Position numbers and translations under genes: made by a program. Positions 14,505 to 40,687 of a stretch of 42,899 nucleotides of DNA are shown piece by piece. The DNA comes from an uncultured Acidimicrobiales bacterium. GTDB taxonomy: Bacteria > Actinomycetota > Acidimicrobiia > Acidimicrobiales > AC-14. The stretch lies in the NCBI GenBank assembly GCA_902805665.1, contig CADCTB010000193.1, positions 1 to 42,899 of the forward strand, written 5' to 3'. The first letter of the stretch is position 1, and the number at the start of each line of letters is the position of its first letter. The notes under the pieces were generated by a model. The model saw nothing but the letters and a program-made list of their open reading frames with translations, searched no databases and was not told the origin of the DNA.

Positions 14505-15886
14505 TGGCCGATATCACCATGCCGCAACTCGGCGAGACGGTCACCGAGGGAACCATCACCCGGTGGTTCAAGAAGGTCGGCGACCAGGTGGCCGAGGACG
14601 AGCCCCTCTTCGAGGTGTCCACCGACAAGGTCGACTCAGAAGTGCCCGCCGCGTCGGCCGGCTACCTCAAGGAGATCCTCGTCGAGGAGGGCGAGACGGT
14701 CGACGTGGGGGCCAGGCTGGCGGTGATAGACGACGCGCCGCCGTCGGCCAACGGGAAGGCGGCGCCCGAGAAGCCCGAGTCTGAGGAGCCCGAGCCCGCG
14801 GCGGCGCCCGAGGCCGAGCCCGAGGCCGAGGACGCGACGCAGGAGGACGAAATCCGGGAGGTCGTGCCCGAGCCCGAACCCCAGATGGATCCCGATCCCG
14901 ACCCGGCGCCGGCACCCCGGCCCAGGGCTGAGCCCGCCGCCCCCGCCGCCGGCGGGCGGCGGGTCCTGTCGCCCCTGGTCCGGCGCCTGCTGGCCGAGAA
15001 CGACCTCGACGTCGACGACATCCAGGGCACCGGCATCGAGGGCCGAGTGACCCGCAACGACGTGATGGCCCACCTGGACAAGGGCGGAAGCCGCGCCGGC
15101 GCGCCCAAGCCGGCCGCCGCCCGCCCCACTGCGCCCGCCCCGCCGGCGGCCGTCACCCCCAAGGCCCGGGCCGGGGCCGACGAGGTCATCCCCTTCACCA
15201 ACATCCGCAAGCGCACGGCCGAGCACATGGTCCGTTCGCAGGCCACCTCGGCCCACGTGCTGATCGCCATGGAGGTCGACTTCGACGCCGTCGACCGGGT
15301 CCGCCTGGCCCAGAAGACGGCCTTCAAGGCGGAGGAGGGGTTCTCCCTCACGTACCTGCCCTTCGTGTCCCGGGCGGTGGTCGACGCCATCCGCGACTTC
15401 CCCCACGTCAACGCCTCCGTCGGCGACAACGAGCTCATCGTCCACCGGGCCGTCCACCTCGGCATCGCGGTGGACATCAACTTCGAGGGCCTCATCGTCC
15501 CCGTGGTCCACGACGCCGACGGCAAGCGCATGCGGTCGATCGCCCGGGAGATCGCCGACCTGGCCGGTCGGGCCCGTAGCAAGAAGCTCAACGCCGACGA
15601 GATCTCGGGCAGCACGTTCACCATCACCAACCCGGGCGGCTACGGCACGTTCTTCACCGCCGCGGTCATCAACCAGCCGCAGGTGGCGATCCTGTCCACC
15701 GACGGCGTGAAGAAGCGCCCGGTGGTCGTGGAGCTGCCCGACGGCAGCGACGCCATCGCCATCCACCCGGTGGGCACGCTGGCTCTGAGCTTCGACCATC
15801 GGGCCTTCGACGGCGCCTATGCGTCGGCGTTCCTGGCCCGGTGCCGCGACATCCTCGAGACCCGGGACTGGTCGCAGGAGCTGTGA
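14504..15886 (+). CDS. Dihydrolipoamide acyltransferase (E2), one lipoyl domain
   Basis: ADITMPQLGETVTEGTITRWFKKVGDQV...STDKVDSEVPAASAG; PSBD SPLVRRLLAENDLDVDDIQGTGIEGRVTRNDV; catalytic SFDHRAFDGAYASAFL; Pro/Glu/Ala linker. Confidence 0.93.
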   Translation: MADITMPQLGETVTEGTITRWFKKVGDQVAEDEPLFEVSTDKVDSEVPAASAGYLKEILVEEGETVDVGARLAVIDDAPPSANGKAAPEKPESEEPEPAAAPEAEPEAEDATQEDEIREVVPEPEPQMDPDPDPAPAPRPRAEPAAPAAGGRRVLSPLVRRLLAENDLDVDDIQGTGIEGRVTRNDVMAHLDKGGSRAGAPKPAAARPTAPAPPAAVTPKARAGADEVIPFTNIRKRTAEHMVRSQATSAHVLIAMEVDFDAVDRVRLAQKTAFKAEEGFSLTYLPFVSRAVVDAIRDFPHVNASVGDNELIVHRAVHLGIAVDINFEGLIVPVVHDADGKRMRSIAREIADLAGRARSKKLNADEISGSTFTITNPGGYGTFFTAAVINQPQVAILSTDGVKKRPVVVELPDGSDAIAIHPVGTLALSFDHRAFDGAYASAFLARCRDILETRDWSQEL

Positions 15887-17451
15887 GCCTCGCCGAACCG
15901 GCGACGGCGACAGAAGCCCCGTTGCGGGCCCGGTGGCTGGGTCGGGTGCGCTTCGGCGACGCCCACGCCCTGCAGCGCGCCCTGTTCCGCGGCACCACCG
16001 ATTCCTACCTGCTCCTCATGGAGCACCACCCCGTCTACACGGTGGGACTGCGGGGCGCGCTGGACCACCTGCGGGTGCCGGCGGCCGAGCTGGGGGCCGA
16101 CGTAGTGGCCACCGACCGCGGGGGCGACGTCACCTGGCACGGGCCCGGTCAGCTGGTGGGCTACCCCATCGTGTCGACCACCGAGTCGCCGAGGGACCAC
16201 GTCCGCTCGGTCGAGCAGCTGGTGATCGACGCCTGCGCCGGCCTCGGCCTTCCCGGCCTCGGACGGATCGAGGGCTCGCCGGGGGTCTGGGCCGATCCCG
16301 ACGGCCGGCGCCCGAGGAAGATCTGCGCCATCGGCGTGCGCCGTTCGCGGGGCAGGACCATGCACGGCTTCGCGCTGAACGTCGACCCCGACCTGTCGTG
16401 GTTCGACCGCATCGTGCCGTGCGGCATCGACGACAAGGGCGTCACCTCCCTGGCCGCCGAAGGGATCACCGTCGCCATGCGCGGCGTGGTCGACGCGGTG
16501 ATCGAGGCCGGGGCTGAGCGCTGGGGCGACGGCGGGGTGGAGCGGGTCGACGTGTCCTGGGAGCGGGAGAGCTCCACCGGCATGCCCGTGGCCACCCGCA
16601 AGCCCGAGTGGCTACGGGTGAAGGTCGACCTGGGGACGGGCTACCGCCAGGTGAAGAGCACCATGCGCAGCCTCAAGCTCGTCACCGTGTGTGAAGAGGC
16701 CGGCTGCCCCAACATCTACGAGTGCTGGCGGGACGGCACGGCCACGTTCATGATCAACGGCGAGCAGTGCACCCGGGCGTGCGGGTTCTGCCAGGTGGAC
16801 ACCAGCAGGCCCATGCCGGTCGACCCGGCCGAGCCCGAGCGGTTGGCCGAGGCGGTGGCCGACATGGGCCTTGCCCATGCGGTGATCACCGCGGTGGCGC
16901 GCGACGACCTTCCCGACGGCGGCGCCGAGGGTTTCGCCGAGTCGATCCGGGCCGTCCGGCGTCGGTGCCCGGGCACTGCGGTCGAGGTGCTCATCCCCGA
17001 CTGCAAGGGCGATCCAGAATCGCTACAGATCATCTTTGAGGCCCGGCCCGACGTCCTGAACCACAACCTGGAGACCGTCGCCCGCCTGCAGCGCCATGTG
17101 CGGCCCTCCGCGTCCTACGCCCGCAGCCTCTCGGTGCTGGCCCGGGCCGCGGCCGCCGGGCTGGTCACCAAGTCCGGCCTCATCCTCGGCCTGGGAGAGA
17201 CCGACGACGAGGTGCTGGCGGCCATGGCCGACCTCCAGCGGGTCGGTGTGTCCATCCTCACCCTGGGCCAGTACCTGCGCCCCTCCGCCGACCACCTGCC
17301 GGTGGACCGGTGGTGGACGCCGGAGGAGTTCGATCGCATGGCCGAAGCGGGCCGGGCCCTCGGCTTCGCCCACGTCGAGGCCTCGCCGCTCACCCGCTCG
17401 AGCTACCACGCCCGCCAGGCGGCAGCCGGGGCGATACCGGCCCCCGGCTAG
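15883..17451 (+). CDS. lipB-lipA: Fused octanoyltransferase (LipB) - lipoyl synthase (LipA)
   Basis: One stop-free frame. LipB: DRGGDVTWHGPGQLVGYPI, RKICAIGVRRSRGRTMHGFALNVD, IVPCGIDDKGVTSL. LipA: RKPEWLRVKV, CEEAGCPNIYEC, CTRACGFC, GLGETDDEV, RSSYHA. GTGA overlap with E2. Confidence 0.92.
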   Translation: MSLAEPATATEAPLRARWLGRVRFGDAHALQRALFRGTTDSYLLLMEHHPVYTVGLRGALDHLRVPAAELGADVVATDRGGDVTWHGPGQLVGYPIVSTTESPRDHVRSVEQLVIDACAGLGLPGLGRIEGSPGVWADPDGRRPRKICAIGVRRSRGRTMHGFALNVDPDLSWFDRIVPCGIDDKGVTSLAAEGITVAMRGVVDAVIEAGAERWGDGGVERVDVSWERESSTGMPVATRKPEWLRVKVDLGTGYRQVKSTMRSLKLVTVCEEAGCPNIYECWRDGTATFMINGEQCTRACGFCQVDTSRPMPVDPAEPERLAEAVADMGLAHAVITAVARDDLPDGGAEGFAESIRAVRRRCPGTAVEVLIPDCKGDPESLQIIFEARPDVLNHNLETVARLQRHVRPSASYARSLSVLARAAAAGLVTKSGLILGLGETDDEVLAAMADLQRVGVSILTLGQYLRPSADHLPVDRWWTPEEFDRMAEAGRALGFAHVEASPLTRSSYHARQAAAGAIPAPG

Positions 17452-23791: not shown

Positions 23792-23803
23792 GAGGATCTG
23801 CGG

Positions 23804-23852
23804 CCGACTTGCAAGCGGTCTTCAAGTCGGACGCAACCAGGGTGCAAGCGTC
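23804..23852 (+). promoter_or_regulatory. 11-bp direct-repeat array (SARP-type box candidate)
   Basis: TTGCAAGCGGT / CTTCAAGTCGG / ACGCAACCAGG / GTGCAAGCGTC from 23809 to 23852, CAA(G/C) cores at 23812, 23823, 23834, 23845. Confidence 0.6.
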
Positions 23853-23906
23853 GGAGGGCGAGAAATGGCGGTGACAACCGACCTCCCGACAAGGAGACCC
23901 GCCGTG

Positions 23907-24737
23907 ATGAAAGTCAACCGCCGCTGCCAGCCCGAGCTCGTCGCCCCCGACACCTACGTCATCCGCCAGCTCTTCGGCGAAGGCCTGGGCCCTGCCGCCG
24001 TGTACGTCAACTCCATGTTGATCGCCGGTCCGGAGGCGGTCATCGTCGACACCGGCCCCGCCGTCGCCCGCGACGACTGGATGGCAGACGTCTTCTCCAT
24101 CGTCGACCCCGGGGACGTGCGCTACGTGTTCCTCTCCCACGACGACACCGACCACGTCGGCAACCTCCGCGAGGTGCTCGACCTGTGCCCACGCGCCACC
24201 CTCGTCACCAACATGTTCACCGTCGAGCGCATGGCCGCCGACTACCTGCTGCCCCTCGACCGGGTCCTGGTCGTCAACGACGGTGACCGCTTCTCGGTGG
24301 CCGACAGGGACCTGCTGGCCGTCGTCCCGCCGACCTTCGACAGCCCCACGACCCGCGGCCTGCTCGACACCCGCACCGGCGTCTACTGGGGTGTTGACAG
24401 CTTCGGCACGCCCGTCCCCACCGAGGTCACCGATGTCGCCGAGCTCCCTCCGGACTTCTACCAGGCCGGGTTCCTGCAGATGAACCGCATGCTCAGCCCC
24501 TGGCACCGCTGGCTCGACAGCAGCCGCTACGGGTCCCACCTCGACCGGGTCCGGTCCTTGGGCGCCGCCGTGGTGGCCAACGCCCACGGCCCCGCGCTAC
24601 GAGGTGACCAGATCGGCACCGCCCTGGACATGCTGGCCCAGCTGCCGGACATGCCGGCCGCGCCCCTTCCCGGCCAGGCCCAGCTCGAGGCGCTGATCGC
24701 CCAGTTCACCGCGCCGGCCCAGACCGCCGCCGCGTGA
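23907..24737 (+). CDS. Metallo-beta-lactamase-fold protein, flavodiiron (ODP)-like, paralog of 36087..36959
   Basis: VFSIVDPGDVRYVFLSHDDTDHVGNLREVL...TGVYWGVDSFG...ANAHGPAL; AAGGAG at 23891 supports GTG 23904/ATG 23907 rather than ATG 23865. Confidence 0.8.
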   Translation: MKVNRRCQPELVAPDTYVIRQLFGEGLGPAAVYVNSMLIAGPEAVIVDTGPAVARDDWMADVFSIVDPGDVRYVFLSHDDTDHVGNLREVLDLCPRATLVTNMFTVERMAADYLLPLDRVLVVNDGDRFSVADRDLLAVVPPTFDSPTTRGLLDTRTGVYWGVDSFGTPVPTEVTDVAELPPDFYQAGFLQMNRMLSPWHRWLDSSRYGSHLDRVRSLGAAVVANAHGPALRGDQIGTALDMLAQLPDMPAAPLPGQAQLEALIAQFTAPAQTAAA

Positions 24738-24753
24738 CCCGGGGAAGTGCGTG

Positions 24754-25191
24754 ATGACCTACGTCTTCGATCTGGTCACTGAGGCCACCCCCCAGAGGGT
24801 GTGGGCGGTGCTGACCACGCCCGAGCTGACCGCGGAGTACCTCTCCGGCCTCGCAGCCCGGTCGATGTGGCGGACCGGCTCCCCTGTCGCCTTCTCGGTG
24901 TCGGGGCCGGCCGCTGCGCCCGCCCTCACCCTTCAGGGAGAAGTGCTCGCTGCTGCCGAGCCCACCCGGCTCTCCTACACACTCACGGCGGGACCGGACC
25001 AGCCCACCACCTACGTGACCTGGGAGGTCATCGCCGACGGCCGGGGCGCCGCCATCCGGCTCTCCGTCGACGAGCCCGACGAGCTGACGTCCGGCTCCCG
25101 TGAGGCCGAGACCGAGGCCGTGTGGTCGCAGATCATGGGGGACCTCGGCACGGTGCTGGCCCGGTCGGTCAGCCGGCCCTCACCGGCATGA
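24754..25191 (+). CDS. SRPBCC/AHSA1-like ligand-binding protein
   Basis: YVFDLVTEATPQRVWAVLTTPELTAEYLSG...; alternative start GTG 24751. Confidence 0.75.
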   Translation: MTYVFDLVTEATPQRVWAVLTTPELTAEYLSGLAARSMWRTGSPVAFSVSGPAAAPALTLQGEVLAAAEPTRLSYTLTAGPDQPTTYVTWEVIADGRGAAIRLSVDEPDELTSGSREAETEAVWSQIMGDLGTVLARSVSRPSPA

Positions 25192-30151: not shown

Positions 30152-31744
30152 CTATTTCGGCAGCAGATCGTGCTGGACGGCGAAGAGGGTGGCTGCGGCA
30201 CGCGATGACACGCCGATCTTCGTGTAGACGTTCTGCACGTGGTGTTCCGCGGTGCGACGGGAGACGAAGAGCCGCTCGCCGATCACCGCGTTCGAGCATC
30301 CCTGCGCCATCAGCCCCAGCACCTGGATCTCCCGGTCGGTGAGCCCGGCCGGCCGTAGGTCGACCGGACGGCGTCCTCTCCGCTCTGCTGCCTCGGCAAG
30401 GACCGCCGTGACCGCGTCCCGGTCGAGGCGGCCGGCCCGGGCCTCAGCGGAGAGCACCTCCGCCGCGTCCGTCGGCGTAAAAGCGGCCCGATAGGACCGA
30501 GGCTGCGACAGGGCTGCGAAGGTGTCGGCCGCGGCCAGGAGGCGCGCCTCCACGCCGATGTCCTTCGTCGTGCTGCATCGGTGGTACCCCGAACCGTCAA
30601 GCCTTTCGTGGTGCATCCCCGCGATGACCGCCATCGGCTCCAGGGCCTCGGCCGTGGCGAGCACCCGCTCGGAGTGGTAGGCGTGCATCCGCACCTGCTC
30701 CCACTCGGCCCTGGTGAGCGGTCCCTCCTTCTCCCAGAGTGCGTTGGAGATCCCTACCCGACCGACGTCGTGGAGCAGCGCGGCGACCTCCAGCCGGTGG
30801 AGGGACGCCGGGCCGAGGCCGACCTGTTCGCCGGCGGCCACGGCCAGACGGGCGACCGTTGCCGCGTGGCCGTGGAAGTAGGGAGACTTGAGGTCGGCCA
30901 GATCGCCGAAGGCGGCGGCCACCCGGGCCAGGTCGCCGGCGTTGCATTCGCGCACCGGCTCAGGCTCGACCTCGAGGATGCGGTCACGAGGATCGCCGGT
31001 TCCGCCTCCGGCCTCGGCCAAGAGGTGATCGACGTCGGCCAGGAACGTGTCGACGATCTCAGGGTCGAGGACGCCGCCCGCTCGCCGCTTGACCGCGGCC
31101 GCAGCGCGCTCGGCACCGCCGACATCGTCGAAGAAGACGGCGTCAGCGGCGACCCGCGCCACCCTTGCGGCCACCGCGATCTGGTCCCCGCCCAGCCCCT
31201 GCGGAGCCGATCCACCACGCCAGAACTCCGTTACCTCGTGGAGCGCCCGCTGGGTGCTCTCCGGGAGCCCGATACGCCGGGCGGTGGCCCGGGCGACCTC
31301 GCAGCTGGCGGTGTCGTATCTCCTCCCGAGCTCGATCCCGTAGGCGAGGACATACTCGGTGACCCGTGAGCGCTCCGCCGCGGTCATGCCTCGCGTGAGC
31401 TCGGGAATCAGCGTGCGCCCGAAGTCGTCGGGATCGCCGAGGTCGGTGAGGGTTACGGCGCGGTTGACAGCGAGGTCGTCGCCCAGGGCGGCGGCGGTTT
31501 CGTGCGCCATGCTGATGCACCCCACGTGCATCAGGAGGGGAACGTAGAAGGCGTCGCGCACGTCGTCGTCGTCCAGCCCCATCCTCCGGGCCAAGGCGGT
31601 GGACACCAGGCAGGTGCGCATCGCCTCCTGGGGCGGAAGGCCGAAACCCAGATCGGCCACGATCGAAAGTCCCCCGAGCAGATCGGCGAACCGAAGCCGC
31701 GAAGCCACAGCGGGCACGCTATTCCCGCCCCCCCGATCGTGCAT
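30152..31744 (-). CDS. HD-GYP domain protein with C-terminal LuxR-type HTH
   Basis: LLHDVGRVGISNALWEKEGPLTRAEWEQVRMHAYHSERVL...GMHHERLDGSGYHR; C-terminal GLTDREIQVLGLMAQGCSNAVIGERLFVSRRTAEHHVQNVYTKIGVSSRA. Confidence 0.88.
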   Translation of the reverse strand: MHDRGGGNSVPAVASRLRFADLLGGLSIVADLGFGLPPQEAMRTCLVSTALARRMGLDDDDVRDAFYVPLLMHVGCISMAHETAAALGDDLAVNRAVTLTDLGDPDDFGRTLIPELTRGMTAAERSRVTEYVLAYGIELGRRYDTASCEVARATARRIGLPESTQRALHEVTEFWRGGSAPQGLGGDQIAVAARVARVAADAVFFDDVGGAERAAAAVKRRAGGVLDPEIVDTFLADVDHLLAEAGGGTGDPRDRILEVEPEPVRECNAGDLARVAAAFGDLADLKSPYFHGHAATVARLAVAAGEQVGLGPASLHRLEVAALLHDVGRVGISNALWEKEGPLTRAEWEQVRMHAYHSERVLATAEALEPMAVIAGMHHERLDGSGYHRCSTTKDIGVEARLLAAADTFAALSQPRSYRAAFTPTDAAEVLSAEARAGRLDRDAVTAVLAEAAERRGRRPVDLRPAGLTDREIQVLGLMAQGCSNAVIGERLFVSRRTAEHHVQNVYTKIGVSSRAAATLFAVQHDLLPK

Positions 31745-31767: not shown

Positions 31768-34700
31768 CTATCCGTCCCGCTGTCTTGTGGGCGTGCTGGC
31801 CGGGAGGGCCATGAGAGCGTCGATGTCGGCAAGGAGGGCGTCCATGCCGACATCGCGGGCGATCTGGGCCGCAGCAACCAGTAGTTGATCAGCGTCCTGG
31901 CCGCCGGCGATCGACGGCTCCTCGGTCACGAGCCGCGCAAGGTGGTACAGGGCCCGCGCTTCGAACGGTCGGGCGCCGAGGCGGCGGTTGTGGTCGACCG
32001 CGGCGGTCAGATGGCGGTGCGCCGCGTCGAGCCGTCCGAGACGCCGGGCGAGGAGTCCCAGGATGGTCTGTGTCGAACCCCACGAGGTCACCCCCGTACC
32101 GGCCACCACCACCTGGTCGGCGCGAGGGAGCAGCGCGTCGTACAGCGACGCGGCGTCCGGGACGCCGGTGAGGATCGAGATCTCCGACCACTGGGCGGTG
32201 GTGAAGTCCCACGACCAGTCGAACGGCCGGGCGCATCCCCAAGCCGAGATCCTGTCCGCCACTTCGTCGTGACGACCCATGCAGGCCAGGGCCAGGACGG
32301 CGGTGGGACGGATCGGCTCACCGCCGGGCTCTCCGCTCAGGGTTAGGAGCTCCGGCAGCAGCTCCTCGAGCCGGCCCTGCTCCCGCCTCATCCAGAACAG
32401 CTGCACCATCCGGCACCACAGCACCCCCCAGACGCTGGTCGGTGGAAGCCGCTCCATCGCCTTGGCCGACAGTGCCTCGGCTTCATCCCAGCGCCCGGTC
32501 AGGATGGCCAGCCCGGTCCTGCCATGAAGCACCTGGCCGCGAAGCTCGGGCACTCCCAGCTCGGTGGCCAGCCGCTCGCTGGTGGCCAGCTCCGCCTCGT
32601 AGGCCCCCACCTCGCCGCTTCGCAGAAGCGACCACATGCCGTGCAGCCGGGCGATCACCTCGGTTTCGGGCGGCAGTCCGGCACCCACCAGGGCGAGAGA
32701 CTCCGCCACCACGGCACGCCGCTCCGCCTCCCGGTCCGGTGACCACAGGGCGATGTGGCAGTTGTTCAAGACGCGCCCCAACAGCGCGGGGTCGCCGACC
32801 TGCCGAGCCAGGTCCACCGCCTCCCGGACTGCCGCCTCGCGCCGGTCGCGCTGATCGGTGTAGTAGAGCTCGACGCCCAAGGTGCCGAGGAGCTGCGCCC
32901 GCAGGGCGGGACGGTCGGTTCCCGTGCCGGCGAGCAGCTCCTCCAGCAGCGAGATCATTGCCGGATCCGACTCCCCGTACGGGCGCCAGTTCCAGAGGGT
33001 GACCCCACCGAAGACCACGACGGCACGAGCCGCCCGCTCCTTGTCGCCCAGGGCGTGGGCAATGGCGATCGCTTCCTCCACGTTGTCCCTGGCGGCGCGG
33101 ACGTCGCCGATGCGCCGCTGCGCCTGGCTGAGCCCCAGCAGGACGTCGTACCGCTGTTCCCGGCAGTCGTCAGCGACCGGGTCGACCGCTCCGAGCGCGC
33201 GCTGCCAGTAGCGAACCGCCTCGTCGTGGGCCAGCTTGCGTTCCGCCACCTCGGCGGCGAGCCGGGCGTATCGCACGGCCTTGGGGGCGGTCCCGGTCGG
33301 CAGGGCGGCGAGGAAGTGGTGGGCCAGTTCGTCGACGCGGGACTCCAGGCGCGGGTTCTCCTGCGGCCTGAGCGTCGCCTCGAGCGCCTCGGCCACCCGC
33401 CGGTGGATCCGGGCCCGCTTCAGGCGGGTCAGGCTCGCATAGAGGGCCTCGGGAAGCAGGGCGTGGGAGAACCTCGACGACCAGGAGTCCGGCGCGTCGA
33501 CCACAACGCCGATGGCGACGGCGGGTTCGAGCAACTCCAACAACCGTTCGACGTCGAGGCCCGACGCCGCCGCCAGCAGGTCGATGTCGAACTCCCGACC
33601 GATGACGGCGGCGACGCGGAGCACGGTCTGGGTGTCCTCCGGCAGCCGCGCCATGCGCCGGTAGATCACATCCCTGACGCTGGCCGGCACCTCCAGAACG
33701 TCGCCCCGCCGGTCACCGGCCTCGATCGCCTTCTCGCTGGTCAGCAAACGAACGAGCTCGATGAGGAAGAACGGGTTGCCTTCGGTGCGCCGGTGCAGGC
33801 GCGACGCCAGTTCGGCGTCGGAAGACGACGACCCCGCGAGTTCGAGGTAGCGCCCCACGTCGGCCACGCTCAGGCCGCCGAGGCGGATGCGCTCGGTGCC
33901 CCGCTCGCGCGCGAGCGCCCCGAGCAGATCCTCGAGGCCCTGTTCGCTCTCATGGGCCGAGCGGAATGTGGCGACGATCAGGAGCGGCGTTCTCGCGGTC
34001 TGTCCGGCGACGAACTCCAGCAGCTGCTGGGAGGAGCCGTCGGCCCAATGCAGGTCGTCGATGACGATGAGCAGAGGACGGTCTGCCGCGGCCCGCAACA
34101 GGTGGTCGACCACCTGGCTGTAGAGCTGGAACCGCGCCGCCGCGGGGTCGGTGGCGGCGAGCGCCTCCTCTACGCCGGTCCCGAGCAGGGACGCGATGGA
34201 CGGCGACCCACCGACGTTCCGGCCGTCGGTGCCCGGGCCCCCGATGGCTTGCAGGACCTGGATCCACGGCCAGAACGGCGGGGCGCCGGCGGTCTCGGCG
34301 CCGCGGCTCCAGACCACGGCCATGCCGGCCTGCCCGGCAAGCTGGGCCAGCTCCTCCACGAGCCGCGTCTTGCCGATGCCGGGCTCGCCTTCGACCAGGA
34401 CGACCCCGCCATGACCCGCTTTCGCGGCCTCGAGCCGGTCGACGAGACAACGCATCTGCGACTCGCGGCCCACCAAGGGCGCCCGGCGCGACGACGGCCC
34501 GGAGGACGGGGCCGCGAGCGGCGGCGGCGGAGCGGGCTCGGGCGACGGCGGCCCGGGGGCGACTGTGGGCCGGCCGGCCAGAGGCGCCGGCTGCAGCTCC
34601 GGAGTCAGCTCCTGGGAGAGGATGGCCTGTTCGAGGCGTCGCAGCTCCGGCCCTGGCTCCAGTCCCAGGTCTTCCTGGAGGATCCGACGGCACTGTTGGT

Positions 34701-35361
34701 AGGCGCGAAGTGCCTCCGCCTGACGACCCGCCCGGTACAGGGCGATCATCAAGAGGCCCCACAACCGCTCGCGGAACGGATGCTCGCCCACCAGCCGCTC
34801 CAACTCGGCGGCGGCGGCACCGTGGCGCCCCAGCAGCAGCCAGGCGTCGATACGGTGCTCCCAGGCCCGGACCTGCAATTCGGTGAGGCGGGCGACTTCG
34901 GGGAGGATGAACGCCTCCCCGGCGAGGTCGGCGAGCGGTGCCCCCCGCCAGAGGCGGAGCGCCTCGGCGAGAGCGGCGTCCGCGCCTTCCGGCGAGCCGG
35001 CCGAGAGCAACCGCTCTCCACGCTCGACGAGGTCCGCGAAGCGAACCGCGTCGACGTTGGCGGGAGGGACTCTCAGCACATACCCAGGCGACTCGGTGAC
35101 GAGGACCCGGGCCGGCTGACGCGGTCCCCGCTCGGGCTCGAGCAACCTCCGGAGGTGCGACACGTAGGCCTGGAGCGTCCCGGTGGCCGTGGCCGGCGGC
35201 TGGTCACCCCACAGCTGGTCGATGATCCTGTCCACCGGGACGACCCGATTCACCTCCATGACGAGGAGCGCCAGGAGGGACCTCAGCTTCTGAGTCGGGA
35301 GCTCGATCCGAACCCCGTCATCGGAGAGGACCTCGAGGCCGCCGAGTACTCCCAGATACAT
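31768..35361 (-). CDS. SARP/AfsR-like regulator: OmpR-type DNA-binding + BTAD + AAA ATPase + TPR-like region
   Basis: LPTQKLRSLLALLVMEVNRVVPVDRIIDQLWGDQPPATATGTLQAYVSHLRRLLEP; BTAD ALRAYQQCRRILQEDLGLEPGPELRRLEQAIL; Walker A VEGEPGIGKTRLVEE. Confidence 0.92.
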   Translation of the reverse strand: MYLGVLGGLEVLSDDGVRIELPTQKLRSLLALLVMEVNRVVPVDRIIDQLWGDQPPATATGTLQAYVSHLRRLLEPERGPRQPARVLVTESPGYVLRVPPANVDAVRFADLVERGERLLSAGSPEGADAALAEALRLWRGAPLADLAGEAFILPEVARLTELQVRAWEHRIDAWLLLGRHGAAAAELERLVGEHPFRERLWGLLMIALYRAGRQAEALRAYQQCRRILQEDLGLEPGPELRRLEQAILSQELTPELQPAPLAGRPTVAPGPPSPEPAPPPPLAAPSSGPSSRRAPLVGRESQMRCLVDRLEAAKAGHGGVVLVEGEPGIGKTRLVEELAQLAGQAGMAVVWSRGAETAGAPPFWPWIQVLQAIGGPGTDGRNVGGSPSIASLLGTGVEEALAATDPAAARFQLYSQVVDHLLRAAADRPLLIVIDDLHWADGSSQQLLEFVAGQTARTPLLIVATFRSAHESEQGLEDLLGALARERGTERIRLGGLSVADVGRYLELAGSSSSDAELASRLHRRTEGNPFFLIELVRLLTSEKAIEAGDRRGDVLEVPASVRDVIYRRMARLPEDTQTVLRVAAVIGREFDIDLLAAASGLDVERLLELLEPAVAIGVVVDAPDSWSSRFSHALLPEALYASLTRLKRARIHRRVAEALEATLRPQENPRLESRVDELAHHFLAALPTGTAPKAVRYARLAAEVAERKLAHDEAVRYWQRALGAVDPVADDCREQRYDVLLGLSQAQRRIGDVRAARDNVEEAIAIAHALGDKERAARAVVVFGGVTLWNWRPYGESDPAMISLLEELLAGTGTDRPALRAQLLGTLGVELYYTDQRDRREAAVREAVDLARQVGDPALLGRVLNNCHIALWSPDREAERRAVVAESLALVGAGLPPETEVIARLHGMWSLLRSGEVGAYEAELATSERLATELGVPELRGQVLHGRTGLAILTGRWDEAEALSAKAMERLPPTSVWGVLWCRMVQLFWMRREQGRLEELLPELLTLSGEPGGEPIRPTAVLALACMGRHDEVADRISAWGCARPFDWSWDFTTAQWSEISILTGVPDAASLYDALLPRADQVVVAGTGVTSWGSTQTILGLLARRLGRLDAAHRHLTAAVDHNRRLGARPFEARALYHLARLVTEEPSIAGGQDADQLLVAAAQIARDVGMDALLADIDALMALPASTPTRQRDG

Positions 35362-35430: not shown

Positions 35431-35907
35431 TCACAACTCCAACTCGTACCAGGAGTCTAGGGCGTGAGGGCCCGTCGCGACGGGACGAAATCCCACTTGA
35501 CGGTAGATGCGCTCTACGTCGACATGGTGGCCTGGGGCCGCCAGCACCCGGCGGGTCCCGGTGGTCCGGAGCTGGTCGACGACGGCGGTGACGATCCGTC
35601 CGCCGAGACGGCTCCCGATGTAGGCGGGGGAGACCGCCAGCGCCCGGAGCTCCGCCCCCCCGCCGGCGTCCGGCCCTACGACCACCACTGCGGCCAGCGG
35701 TTCGTCGGGGTCGTCGCTCGCCATGTCGACAAGGGCGTAGACGCACTGGTCCGCCGCTCCGGGATCCACCCCAGGAGACGCGCCTCCGGCCGCCAGCAGG
35801 TCCAGAGCGCGCCCGGCGGAGCCGGCCGGCATGCGACGCAGGAGAAGGGTCGTGAGCCCGAGAGCCCCTCCGTCCTCCGCCCTCCGGGGTACGACGCGCT
35901 CGTCCAT
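35431..35907 (-). CDS. GNAT family N-acetyltransferase
   Basis: ELRALAVSPAYIGSRLGGRIVTAVVDQLRTTGTRRVLAAPGHHVDVERIYRQVGFRPV. Confidence 0.78.
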   Translation of the reverse strand: MDERVVPRRAEDGGALGLTTLLLRRMPAGSAGRALDLLAAGGASPGVDPGAADQCVYALVDMASDDPDEPLAAVVVVGPDAGGGAELRALAVSPAYIGSRLGGRIVTAVVDQLRTTGTRRVLAAPGHHVDVERIYRQVGFRPVATGPHALDSWYELEL

Positions 35908-35914
35908 CCCGCAG

Positions 35915-35961
35915 ACGGTCGCATGACCGACTTGTACGCCCCTTGCCCACGACTTGAATCC
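35915..35961 (-). promoter_or_regulatory. CAAG-box array plus -10-like element for the GNAT-SARP operon
   Basis: Minus strand GGATTCAAGTC / GTGGGCAAGGG / GCGTACAAGTC (CAAG cores exactly 11 nt apart), 8 nt, GACCGT (35915-35920), N7, ATG. Confidence 0.6.
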
Positions 35962-35985
35962 GAGGGGCTTTCTGACATCCCGGCC

Positions 35986-36028
35986 ACCAGCGGACCTCAA
36001 GCGATCCGCAAGCTCGGGGGACGACGCT
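35986..36028 (+). promoter_or_regulatory. CAAG-box array plus -10-like element for the MBL-cupredoxin operon
   Basis: ACCAGCGGACC / TCAAGCGATCC / GCAAGCTCGGG (cores at 35987, 35998, 36009), 8 nt after heptamer GCAAGCT, then GACGCT (36023-36028). Confidence 0.6.
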
Positions 36029-36086
36029 GACCTCGTTCCCGATGGGGTGCCATTCCAGAAGCAGTCCGGACGACAAGGAGATCTCC

Positions 36087-36959
36087 ATGCCCACTACACG
36101 ATTGCCGGCCGTCAGGGCGGACGCAATGCCGGCTCAGCCACCTGCGGTCCACCATCCGCCGCTGCAGATCGCGCCGGAGGCCTTCCTCATCCAACAACTC
36201 CACGGGGAAGGGATGGCGCCGGTGGCGGTGAACGTCAACTCCCTCGTGATCCGCGGCGCCGAGCCGGTCATCGTCGACACCGGCGCGCCGAACAACCGGG
36301 AGCAGTGGCTGACCGACGTCTTCTCGATCGTCGACCCGCTGGACGTCCGCTGGATCTTCCTGAGCCACGACGACGTCGACCACTACGGGAACCTGGAGCA
36401 GGTCCTCGAGGCCTGCCCGAACGCGGTCTTCGTCACCAGCTTCTTCATCGGCGAGCGGATGGGCGTGCTGCTCGACAACCCTCTCCCCCGTTTCCGTTGG
36501 ATCAACGACGGTGACGTGCTCGACGTCGGCGACCGGCTGCTGGTGGCCGCCCGCCCGCCCGTGTACGACAATCCGACGACGCGCGGTCTCTTCGACGCCA
36601 GCACCGGCGTCTACTGGGCCTCCGACGCCTTTGCCACCCCCGTGCCCAGCTTCGTCGAGAACGTGGACGAGCTGGACCCGGGATTCTGGGCCGAGGGCTT
36701 CGCGCAGTTCCAGGGGATGCTCTCGCCGTGGCTCAGCATCGTCGACAATGAGCGGTGGTACGCCCAGGACGTCGCCAAGCTGGTCGACGACCCGGACCTC
36801 CGCATCATCACCGGCGCCCACACGCCGCCGATCACCGGTGCCAAGGTGGGAGAGGCGCTCGAGCTGATGAGCCGCATGCCCGCCATGGGCCCTGTCCGTC
36901 TTCCCGAGCAGGCCGACCTCGACGGCATGCTCGCCGCCATGAACGCGAAGGTCGCATGA
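36087..36959 (+). CDS. Metallo-beta-lactamase-fold protein, flavodiiron (ODP)-like, paralog of 23907..24737
   Basis: VFSIVDPLDVRWIFLSHDDVDHYGNLEQVLEACP...TGVYWASDAFATPVP...ITGAHTPPIT; RBS AAGGAG, 6 nt, ATG. Confidence 0.83.
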   Translation: MPTTRLPAVRADAMPAQPPAVHHPPLQIAPEAFLIQQLHGEGMAPVAVNVNSLVIRGAEPVIVDTGAPNNREQWLTDVFSIVDPLDVRWIFLSHDDVDHYGNLEQVLEACPNAVFVTSFFIGERMGVLLDNPLPRFRWINDGDVLDVGDRLLVAARPPVYDNPTTRGLFDASTGVYWASDAFATPVPSFVENVDELDPGFWAEGFAQFQGMLSPWLSIVDNERWYAQDVAKLVDDPDLRIITGAHTPPITGAKVGEALELMSRMPAMGPVRLPEQADLDGMLAAMNAKVA

Positions 36960-37600: not shown

Positions 37601-40551
37601 CTAGTGAGGCCGTTCGCCCGGTGGCGATCCGGCCTGTGACTGGACGGCCTCGAGGGCGAGCTGTACGACCTCTCCTCGGGACAGAGTGCCCGCGGCACGC
37701 CCGAGCCTTTGCATCTCCGCGTCACCGAGTCGCCGGTTGATGGAATGGCGGCACGCCGAGAGCCGAGCGGCGTCCGCGCCGACGACGGCGGGAGCATCGG
37801 GGTCCGCGTCAGCGGCCGCGAGCAACAGGGCTGCGTCTGCGTCCCGACCGCATTGGGCCAGGAGCTCGGCGACGTTTCGGAGGGTCGTCCACTGCTGGGT
37901 CCAGCTACCGGTCCGCGCCCAGTACCGGATCACGTCCACATAGCGGGCGGAGGCCTGCACCAGTTCGCCTCTCCGTGCCGCGGAGGAGGCCAGCGTGACG
38001 GCGGCGATGGCGGCGACGAAGGACGCACCGCTTACCGTCGACAGCTGGACGGCCCGTTCCAGATGCCGCGACGCGGCAGGGTCACCCAACTCGGCGAGAA
38101 CCTCACCCCGGGCGTAGGCCGTGTAGGCGCCAATCGTCTGGCCGCCCGCCGAGTCGGCGAGGGCGTCCGCCCGGTTGAGCAGCTCCTGGGTCAGTCCGTC
38201 CTGACCTCCGTAGACCGCAGCCAACGCCGCGGTGGCGAAGCGGGTCGCCGTCTCGCCGTGGGCGTCCAGCCGCGCGCTTTCCAGGGTCTGCTCCAATGCC
38301 GCGGCGTGATGCCCGCAGAAGAGCTCGACCACCGCGGACACCTCGAGGGCCCGGCCACGACTCCGGGCATCGGTCGCCTTCGCGAGCGCCCGGTCGGCGA
38401 GCTCCCGCGCCAGCTCCAGCCGTCCCAGCCGCCAGGCGCCCCGTCCGGCGGCCGTCATCAGCAGCGACTCGACGGGCGTGCCGTGCAGACGCGGCTCCTC
38501 GGCCAGCTCGATCGCCCACGACCACGGCTCGGGGTAGTCACGCCACAGGGCGAAATCGTCGAGGTGCACGGACAGCTGTGCCGCGGCCTCGGCGTCTCCC
38601 CGGGCCAGCCAGAAACGGCGTGCCGTGCCCAGTGTGGGCAGAGCCGCCACCAGGCGGGCGGCCCAGGACGGCTCCTCGGGGCCGCTCAGCTTCGCCGCCG
38701 CCCGCTCGACGAAGGCGGCGACCCAGCCGGAAAGCAGCTCCATCGCGTTCTCGGCTTCCCCGTTCCTGGCCAGCTCCTCGGAACCGAACGCCCGGATGCT
38801 GTCGAGCAACCCGTAGTACAGGGAGCCCGCCGCCTCTGTGGCGGTGACCATCGAGGCGTCGACCAGCCTGCTCAGCGCTGCACCGGGGTCACCCGGCAGG
38901 CCACAGCCCCGTCCGACGTGTTCGGCCGCCTCGAGCTCGAAGCGGTCCGGGAAGACCGACAGGTAACGAAAGTACCGCTGCTCGTGGACGTCGAGCAGCT
39001 GGTAGGACCAGTCGATCGTGGCCCTGAGGGTCCGGTGCCGGTCGTCATCGCCTCGACGACCCGGGGGTGCCAGGTCGAGCCGGTGGTCGATGCGCCGCTG
39101 CAACTCGACAAGGCCAATGCCCGCCAGACGGCCGGCGGTGAGCTCGATGGCCAGGGGCAGGCCGTCCAGCCGGCGGCAGATGTCGACGACGGCCACGAGG
39201 TTGTCCGCAGTGGGTGCGAAGGAGGCACCGGCCCGGCGGGCCCTGTCGGCGAACAACGCCACCGGAGGCGCATGCTGCGCCGCGCCGGTCAGCACCTCGG
39301 CCGCGGACGGCAGCTCAAGAGGATCGAGCCGGAACACGCACTCCCGCGGCCATACCGGTCGGCTCCCGGCTGGTATGGAGGAGGACGAGCTGAGGGCACC
39401 ACCGCAGCAGCTCGTCGCCGAGGGCCCGCGCCTCCTCGATGACATGCTCGCAGTTGTCGACGACGAGCAACTGCTGACGAGCCCTGAGATAGTCGACCAG
39501 CGCGTCAAGGGGGTTGCCAGGGCCCCGCACCCCGCACATCTGAGCCACCAGCGACACGACGCCGCCGGGGTGGCGGAGCGGAGCCAGCTCGACGAACACC
39601 GCACCGTCAGCGAAGGCGTCGAGGTGGGAGTGGGCCAGTTCGAGGGCGAGCCGGGTCTTCCCCACCCCGCCCGGCCCCACGACCGTGATGCACGCCTCGG
39701 TCGCCATCAAGGCGGCCAGGCGGCGGAGCTCACCCTCGCGGCCGACCAGAGGAGTCCGTGGATGGGGAAGTCGGGATCCCGGGGCGGTGGGGGGCGACGG
39801 AGACGGTCCCAGTTCCCCTCGGGCCACCGTCACCTCGAGCTCCGCCAGCGCGGTCGAGGGCTCCAGGCCGGTCTCCTCAGCCTCGCCCGCGGTAGGCGTG
39901 GGCGACCTGCAGGGCCTCGGCGCGCCGACCCGACCGGGCCAACGAGACCATGAGCAGCCTCTGAGTCGATTCACGCCAGGGATGCTCGGCGGCTGCACGG
40001 GCGACGAGGTCCACGACATCTTCCGGCCGTTCCGTGGCCAGCCTGGCTGCGAGCAGGTCGTCGGTCAGGGCGCTGTTGAGCTCGGCCAGACGCACAGCCT
40101 CGGCGGCGAGCGGCTCGACGTCGGAGAACTCCTCGAGGGCGAGCCCCCGCCACAGAGCCAGCGCCGAGGAGAACCGCTCGGCGGCCGCCGCGGGATCGTC
40201 GGCCATGAGGGCACGTCCCTGGGCGGCGAGAGTCACTGCCCGGTCCGCGTCCAAGGCACCCCTGTCCAGGGTCAGCCGGTAGCCAGTCCCCTCGTTGGCA
40301 AGGCACCCAGCCGCGCCACCGAGGTGCCGCCGCAGCCGCGACACGTGGCTCTGGACCGCGTTCACCGCCGCGCTCGGGGGATCGTCGCCCCAGAGGGCGT
40401 CCACGATCCGGCTGACACTCACCGTGTCGCCTCCGGCCATGGCCAGCAGGGCCAGCAGCGCGCTCCGTCGCTCCCCGGGCACGTCGACCGCACGGCCGTC
40501 GACACGTAGCCGCAGCGGGCCGAGGACGTCTACCTCCAGCGAGGACGCCAA
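37601..40551 (-). pseudogene. SARP/BTAD-ATPase-TPR regulator split over three frames by two +1 shifts
   Basis: Frame 1 (to ~39887) VDVLGPLRLRVDGRAVDVPGERRSALLALLAM...RAEALQVAHAYR; frame 2 EETGLEPSTALAELE...VVGPGGVGKTRLALELA...LLHTSREPTGM (to ~39346); frame 3 ECVFRLDPLELPSAAEVL to the end. Start TTG 40551 or ATG 40599. Confidence 0.82.
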
Positions 40552-40569
40552 CGTTCCACCTCCCCCCAA

Positions 40570-40613
40570 TGCTGGCACGTCCACGTCAGCTTCGTGCATA
40601 CCCGGTGCCAGCA
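40570..40613. promoter_or_regulatory. Inverted repeat in divergent intergenic region
   Basis: TGCTGGCAC (40570-40578) ... GTGCCAGCA (40605-40613), perfect 9-bp arms. Confidence 0.4.
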
Positions 40614-40687
40614 CTGGGGGCGAAGGTGGCAACGGTCGCGAATGTCACGACCGACCACGACGCAAGGAGACGATTCGATGGCAGGCA

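Follow-up and report, generated by a model that had tools for sequence, protein, structure and literature searches.

CAAG-type direct repeats as a predicted SARP operator before metallo-beta-lactamase-fold genes in an uncultured Acidimicrobiales bacterium

SARPs are best known from Streptomyces, where they switch antibiotic clusters. Two described kinds of operator lie closest to the one reported here. The operators of the SARP-LAL regulators PimR, SanG and PolR consist of CGGCAAG heptamers with 4-bp spacers (PMC3367932, PMC5930380), and AfsR acts at the afsS promoter through the afs box, a set of 11-bp direct repeats over the -35 region followed by a poor -10, CACTGT (PMC10936776).

The window, that is, the whole stretch of 42,899 nucleotides analysed here, contains arrays of the same general kind before genes for metallo-beta-lactamase-fold (MBL) proteins. 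As in the operators of PimR, SanG and PolR, which have two to three units, the repeats are direct, CAAG-cored and set at 11-bp steps; a large regulator with several domains binds those operators through its SARP domain, and binding of this kind is predicted for the window. The differences are that the core in the window is CAAG with variable preceding bases, that one of its arrays (before MBL2) has four units, and that the targets are MBL genes in Acidimicrobiales and not antibiotic clusters, none being apparent from the window genes that were examined. Moreover, the PimR operator keeps clear of the -35, whereas the arrays described here lie directly upstream of a predicted -10. Shared with AfsR and afsS are the 11-bp direct repeats over the (here predicted) -35 region, the poor -10 ([C/G]ANNNT in the window) and a SARP protein with ATPase and TPR parts, but the core sequence is different, there are three to four units as against two, and alignments place A and H of the window's large SARP at the recognition-helix positions that are T88 and R92 in AfsR. 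The type of operator is already known, and its target set and host group appear to be new: a literature search covering few subscription journals returned nothing on a SARP in Acidimicrobiia or on a SARP-MBL regulon.

Three CAAG arrays and their spacing

The array before MBL2 (23812-23848, plus strand) occupies part of the 112 bp that separate MBL2 (23904-24737, plus strand) from a kelch-repeat ORF upstream (stop 23791). Its units, CAAG at 23812, CAAG at 23823, CAAC at 23834 and CAAG at 23845, follow each other in exact 11-bp steps, in keeping with the 11-bp (or 22-bp) spacing of direct repeats by which SARP-dependent promoters are recognised. The four 11-mers described in the initial annotation (23804-23852) are present as written, except that the core of the third is CAAC and not CAAG. 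Its gene starts also hold, with AAGGAG followed by GTG 23904 or ATG 23907, as does the likeness to the array before the GNAT-SARP operon, TTCAAGTCG being common to both (GNAT copy at 35956, minus strand). When one mismatch is tolerated, the window has a single match to the four-unit pattern versus none in 100 dinucleotide shuffles, and four matches to the three-unit pattern versus 0.05 expected.

A scan of the whole 3.52-Mb assembly for CAAG-N7-CAAG-N7-CAAG with at most one mismatch gave four matches, which make up three arrays, all in the window; the reversed-pattern control in the same genome gave 10 matches. The three arrays precede MBL2 (23812, plus strand), the GNAT-SARP operon (35956, minus strand) and MBL1 (35987, plus strand); the annotation had recorded two of them, both of which are present, and had missed the one at MBL1. 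Of the two three-unit arrays, the one at the GNAT-SARP operon (35931-35956, minus strand) is perfect and the one at MBL1 (35987-36012, plus strand) reads CCAG, CAAG, CAAG. MBL1 (36087-36959, plus strand) is a paralog of MBL2 (47-48% identity) and diverges from the GNAT-SARP operon. The two paralogs had been called unlinked; they lie about 12 kb apart on one contig.

The composite pattern CAAG-N7-CAAG-N10-SANNNT has two exact matches in the genome, both in the window. Relaxed to one mismatch, it gives 14 matches in the same genome versus 17 in the control, and we therefore claim no additional members of the regulon. No three-unit array with at most one mismatch was found near the remaining SARPs of the genome, nor any array scoring at least 11 of 12 on the readable stretches at its four other MBL paralogs, one of which lies at a contig start. 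These four genes are located on G000 contigs C104, C149 and C50, and on C104 two of them stand in tandem, following the end of a LuxR-type gene.

Each of the three arrays is followed by a predicted -10: GACCGT for the GNAT-SARP operon (35915-35920, minus strand) and GACGCT for MBL1 (36023-36028, plus strand), both 10 bp after the last CAAG, and GAGAAA for MBL2 (23860-23865, plus strand), 11 bp after it. Given its predicted -10, the GNAT ATG at 35908 would be leaderless, with transcription predicted to begin there, and the start for MBL1 would fall near 36035. Among 26 arrays selected by their CAAG units and not by their -10 (L042:9072 having been added after its sequence was read, and L114/L116 and L214/L220 being near copies), a [C/G]ANNNT hexamer lies exactly 10 bp past the last CAAG in 17, and every other spacing from 0 to 35 is found at most twice. 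According to the published SARP rule, the 3' member of the 11-bp direct repeats lies 8 bp from the -10 (PMC10936776); with the heptamer taken as NCAAGNN, a distance of 10 bp from CAAG is one of 8 bp from the heptamer, and the arrays thus conform to this rule. The loosest promoter in this respect is that of MBL2, and the annotation was right to find its -10 less convincing: the hexamer is the weakest of those predicted and the spacer exceeds the usual 10 bp by one base. We prefer GAGAAA at this promoter because the orthologs show GAGAAC (L142) or GACAAC (L143, G027) there, in each case 10 bp after the last CAAG.

Conservation before MBL2 orthologs and linkage to SARPs

In the protein tree, MBL2 forms a clade with its relatives in G027, L142 and L143 (support 100/98), which are respectively 60%, 61% and 54-55% identical to it. 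An 11-bp array of CAAG type, with a predicted GA[G/C]AA[A/C] -10, precedes the gene in all four; absence of the array before orthologs, which the initial annotation had set against its own reading, is not what we observe. More specifically, the ortholog in G027 is divergent from a large SARP that is 52% identical to that of the window in its DNA-binding half, and two further perfect arrays are found on the far side of this SARP, one before an MBL-like but diverged ORF (no Pfam match, 30% identity to MBL2) and the other facing a small lipoprotein-like gene whose copper-binding match is weak. This layout resembles that of the window. Three MBL loci with an array (L142, L143 and L187) have no SARP on the stretch examined, and in G011 the MBL gene has a SARP nearby yet no CAAG array scoring at least 11 of 12.

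The association was also assessed across 78 MBL-family upstream regions, whose hosts include Acidimicrobiia, Desertimonas, Yinghuangia and Herbidospora. Some of the rows are related or near copies, and with this in mind a score of at least 11 of 12 was reached by 6 of the 78 regions at period 11 versus 0 of 780 at ten control periods, a score of at least 10 of 12 by 10 of 78 versus 7 of 780, and arrays were present at 7 of 11 MBL loci with a SARP on the stretch examined versus 3 of 67 without (Fisher's test, p = 1.3e-5). In the home family, six of the seven exact arrays have a SARP-like match no more than 10 kb away (p ~2e-7), or five of six when the genome under study is left out (p ~2e-6), and several are immediately divergent from a SARP, before unrelated genes. 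Exact three-unit arrays outside the home family were about as common as the reversed-pattern control in an order-wide scan, and that scan is therefore not used as evidence there.

Some further features of these loci were recorded. Three home-family relatives (L115:5136-5158, L116:7419 and L118:7397) have SARP-adjacent arrays before non-MBL genes, including genes for small, secreted-looking proteins. Array-adjacent SARPs (L042, L115, L116, L118, L155, L168, L169, L209, L214 and L219) have the helix pattern [LV]Q[SAG]Y[VI]S in common, and N at the position of AfsR R92 (L155, L168) accompanies TCCA-type boxes, a possible specificity code.

Candidate activator and alternative readings

The genes for a GNAT acetyltransferase (35432-35908, minus strand; Acetyltransf_1, found on the longer ORF 35431-36000), a large SARP (31768-35361, minus strand; Trans_reg_C, BTAD, AAA_16 and TPR) and a protein with HD_5 and LuxR-type HTH domain matches (30152-31744, minus strand) probably form one operon, to which the last is assigned by a gap of 23 bp. 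The large SARP has the AfsR-like order of Trans_reg_C, BTAD, ATPase and TPR, and its closest solved relatives are EmbR and AfsR. It is encoded about 12 kb from MBL2, in an operon with like boxes of its own, as would suit a linked cognate regulator. In total, the genome has 18 SARP-like matches, including a small SARP in the window (39877-40632, minus strand; Trans_reg_C and BTAD), near which no CAAG array was found.

We consider it likely, from the sequence comparisons above, that a SARP-dependent promoter has its operator at 23812-23848 and that the large SARP activates MBL2, MBL1 and its own operon, a predicted regulon of three promoters. On the successive 11-bp direct repeats, each of them a helical turn long, SARP protomers would be placed next to one another. 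Because the last repeat closely precedes the poor -10 (GAGAAA), the SARP would overlap the -35 region, replace a -35 contact and recruit RNA polymerase, a step modelled by analogy on the solved mechanism of AfsR (PMC10936776). Transcription from the start site predicted near 23872 would cover MBL2 and probably an AHSA1-domain gene (24751-25191, plus strand; domain match), which lies 13 bp behind MBL2 and, judging by this short gap, is probably co-transcribed with it. The large SARP is the most likely activator, with boxes also before its own GNAT-SARP operon and MBL1, and the array at its own operon would imply autoregulation. The proposal of the initial annotation that a small SARP regulon joins both MBL paralogs is strengthened by the genome-wide restriction of the arrays, their presence throughout the MBL2 clade, the SARP linkage elsewhere and the fixed 10-bp offset.

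The same operator might be read by a different SARP, either the small one at 39877-40632 or one encoded elsewhere in the genome. The number of SARP-like matches, the second SARP in the window and the arrays of L142 and L143 with no SARP on the stretch examined would agree with such a binder. We nevertheless hold it to be unlikely: arrays also stand before the operon of the large SARP and the divergent MBL1, the corresponding large SARP adjoins the MBL2 ortholog in G027, and the remaining SARPs of the genome are without a nearby three-unit array. Chance periodicity in GC-rich DNA deserves mention because exact three-unit arrays reach about control frequency in distant genomes of the order, where single matches mean little. 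For the array before MBL2 it is extremely improbable, given the 0 of 100 shuffles, the restriction to three promoters genome-wide, the conservation in orthologs and the fixed offset of the -10.

A further reading takes its start from an inverted repeat at 23799-23835 (plus strand), beginning 8 nt past the kelch stop codon and overlapping boxes 1 and 2. Its 13-nt arms (23799-23811 and 23823-23835) match at 92% around an 11-nt loop. The annotation had described an 8-bp inverted repeat formed by the first two boxes; an inverted repeat does exist and is longer, but it is not a product of these boxes because most of the left arm precedes box 1. The hairpin could be the real feature, serving as a terminator of the kelch gene or as an RNA-level signal, with the direct repeats as a by-product, and its long arms, its place behind the stop codon and an RNA z-score of -2.5 fit this. 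It has no T-run, however, and the inverted repeat was not seen in the orthologs compared (L142, L143 and G027), which do keep the direct repeats; the two other arrays of the regulon sit in a divergent region. A hairpin could also coexist with an operator, and we regard its being the sole feature as very unlikely.

Products and meaning of the predicted regulon

MBL2 is a stand-alone protein with Pfam matches to Lactamase_B and ODP (40.2 bits, cutoff 27.2). In its AlphaFold model (pLDDT 91) the fold matches those of flavodiiron proteins and stand-alone ODP chemosensors in the PDB, and on the basis of fold and Pfam ODP, MBL1 and MBL2 are probably ODP-type proteins and not antibiotic-degrading beta-lactamases. 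Both share with flavodiiron proteins and ODP chemosensors the fold and most metal-ligand positions, and H78xD80xD82H83, D164 and H227 are invariant in the protein alignment. By sequence alignment, the positions of the flavodiiron diiron ligand set are largely kept in MBL2 and some are altered: the HxE of flavodiiron proteins is HxD in MBL1 and MBL2, and where a further His aligns, the MBLs have S, N, A or G. MBL1 and MBL2 also differ from flavodiiron proteins in standing alone, without the flavodoxin domain. A query with MBL2 against viral contigs gave no match. Elsewhere in the window, a single ORF (15841-17451, plus strand) combines LplA-B_cat, LIAS_N and Radical_SAM and is a possible lipoyl ligase/lipoyl synthase fusion.

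The predicted SARP circuit of Acidimicrobiales, with an operator, a -10 and a target list, constitutes a testable regulon, and CAAG-N7-CAAG-N7-CAAG-N10-[CG]ANNNT offers a search pattern for further cases. On the MBL protein tree a minimum of five changes is needed for the array label, which is clustered (none of 500 shuffles reached so low a number), so the pairing of SARP and MBL may have arisen several times. We tentatively suggest, as one possibility among others, that this is a recurrent pairing outside antibiotic clusters, in which SARPs would control stand-alone ODP-type proteins that are possibly O2/NO-reactive and the MBL may act as a sensor or detoxifier within a SARP circuit.
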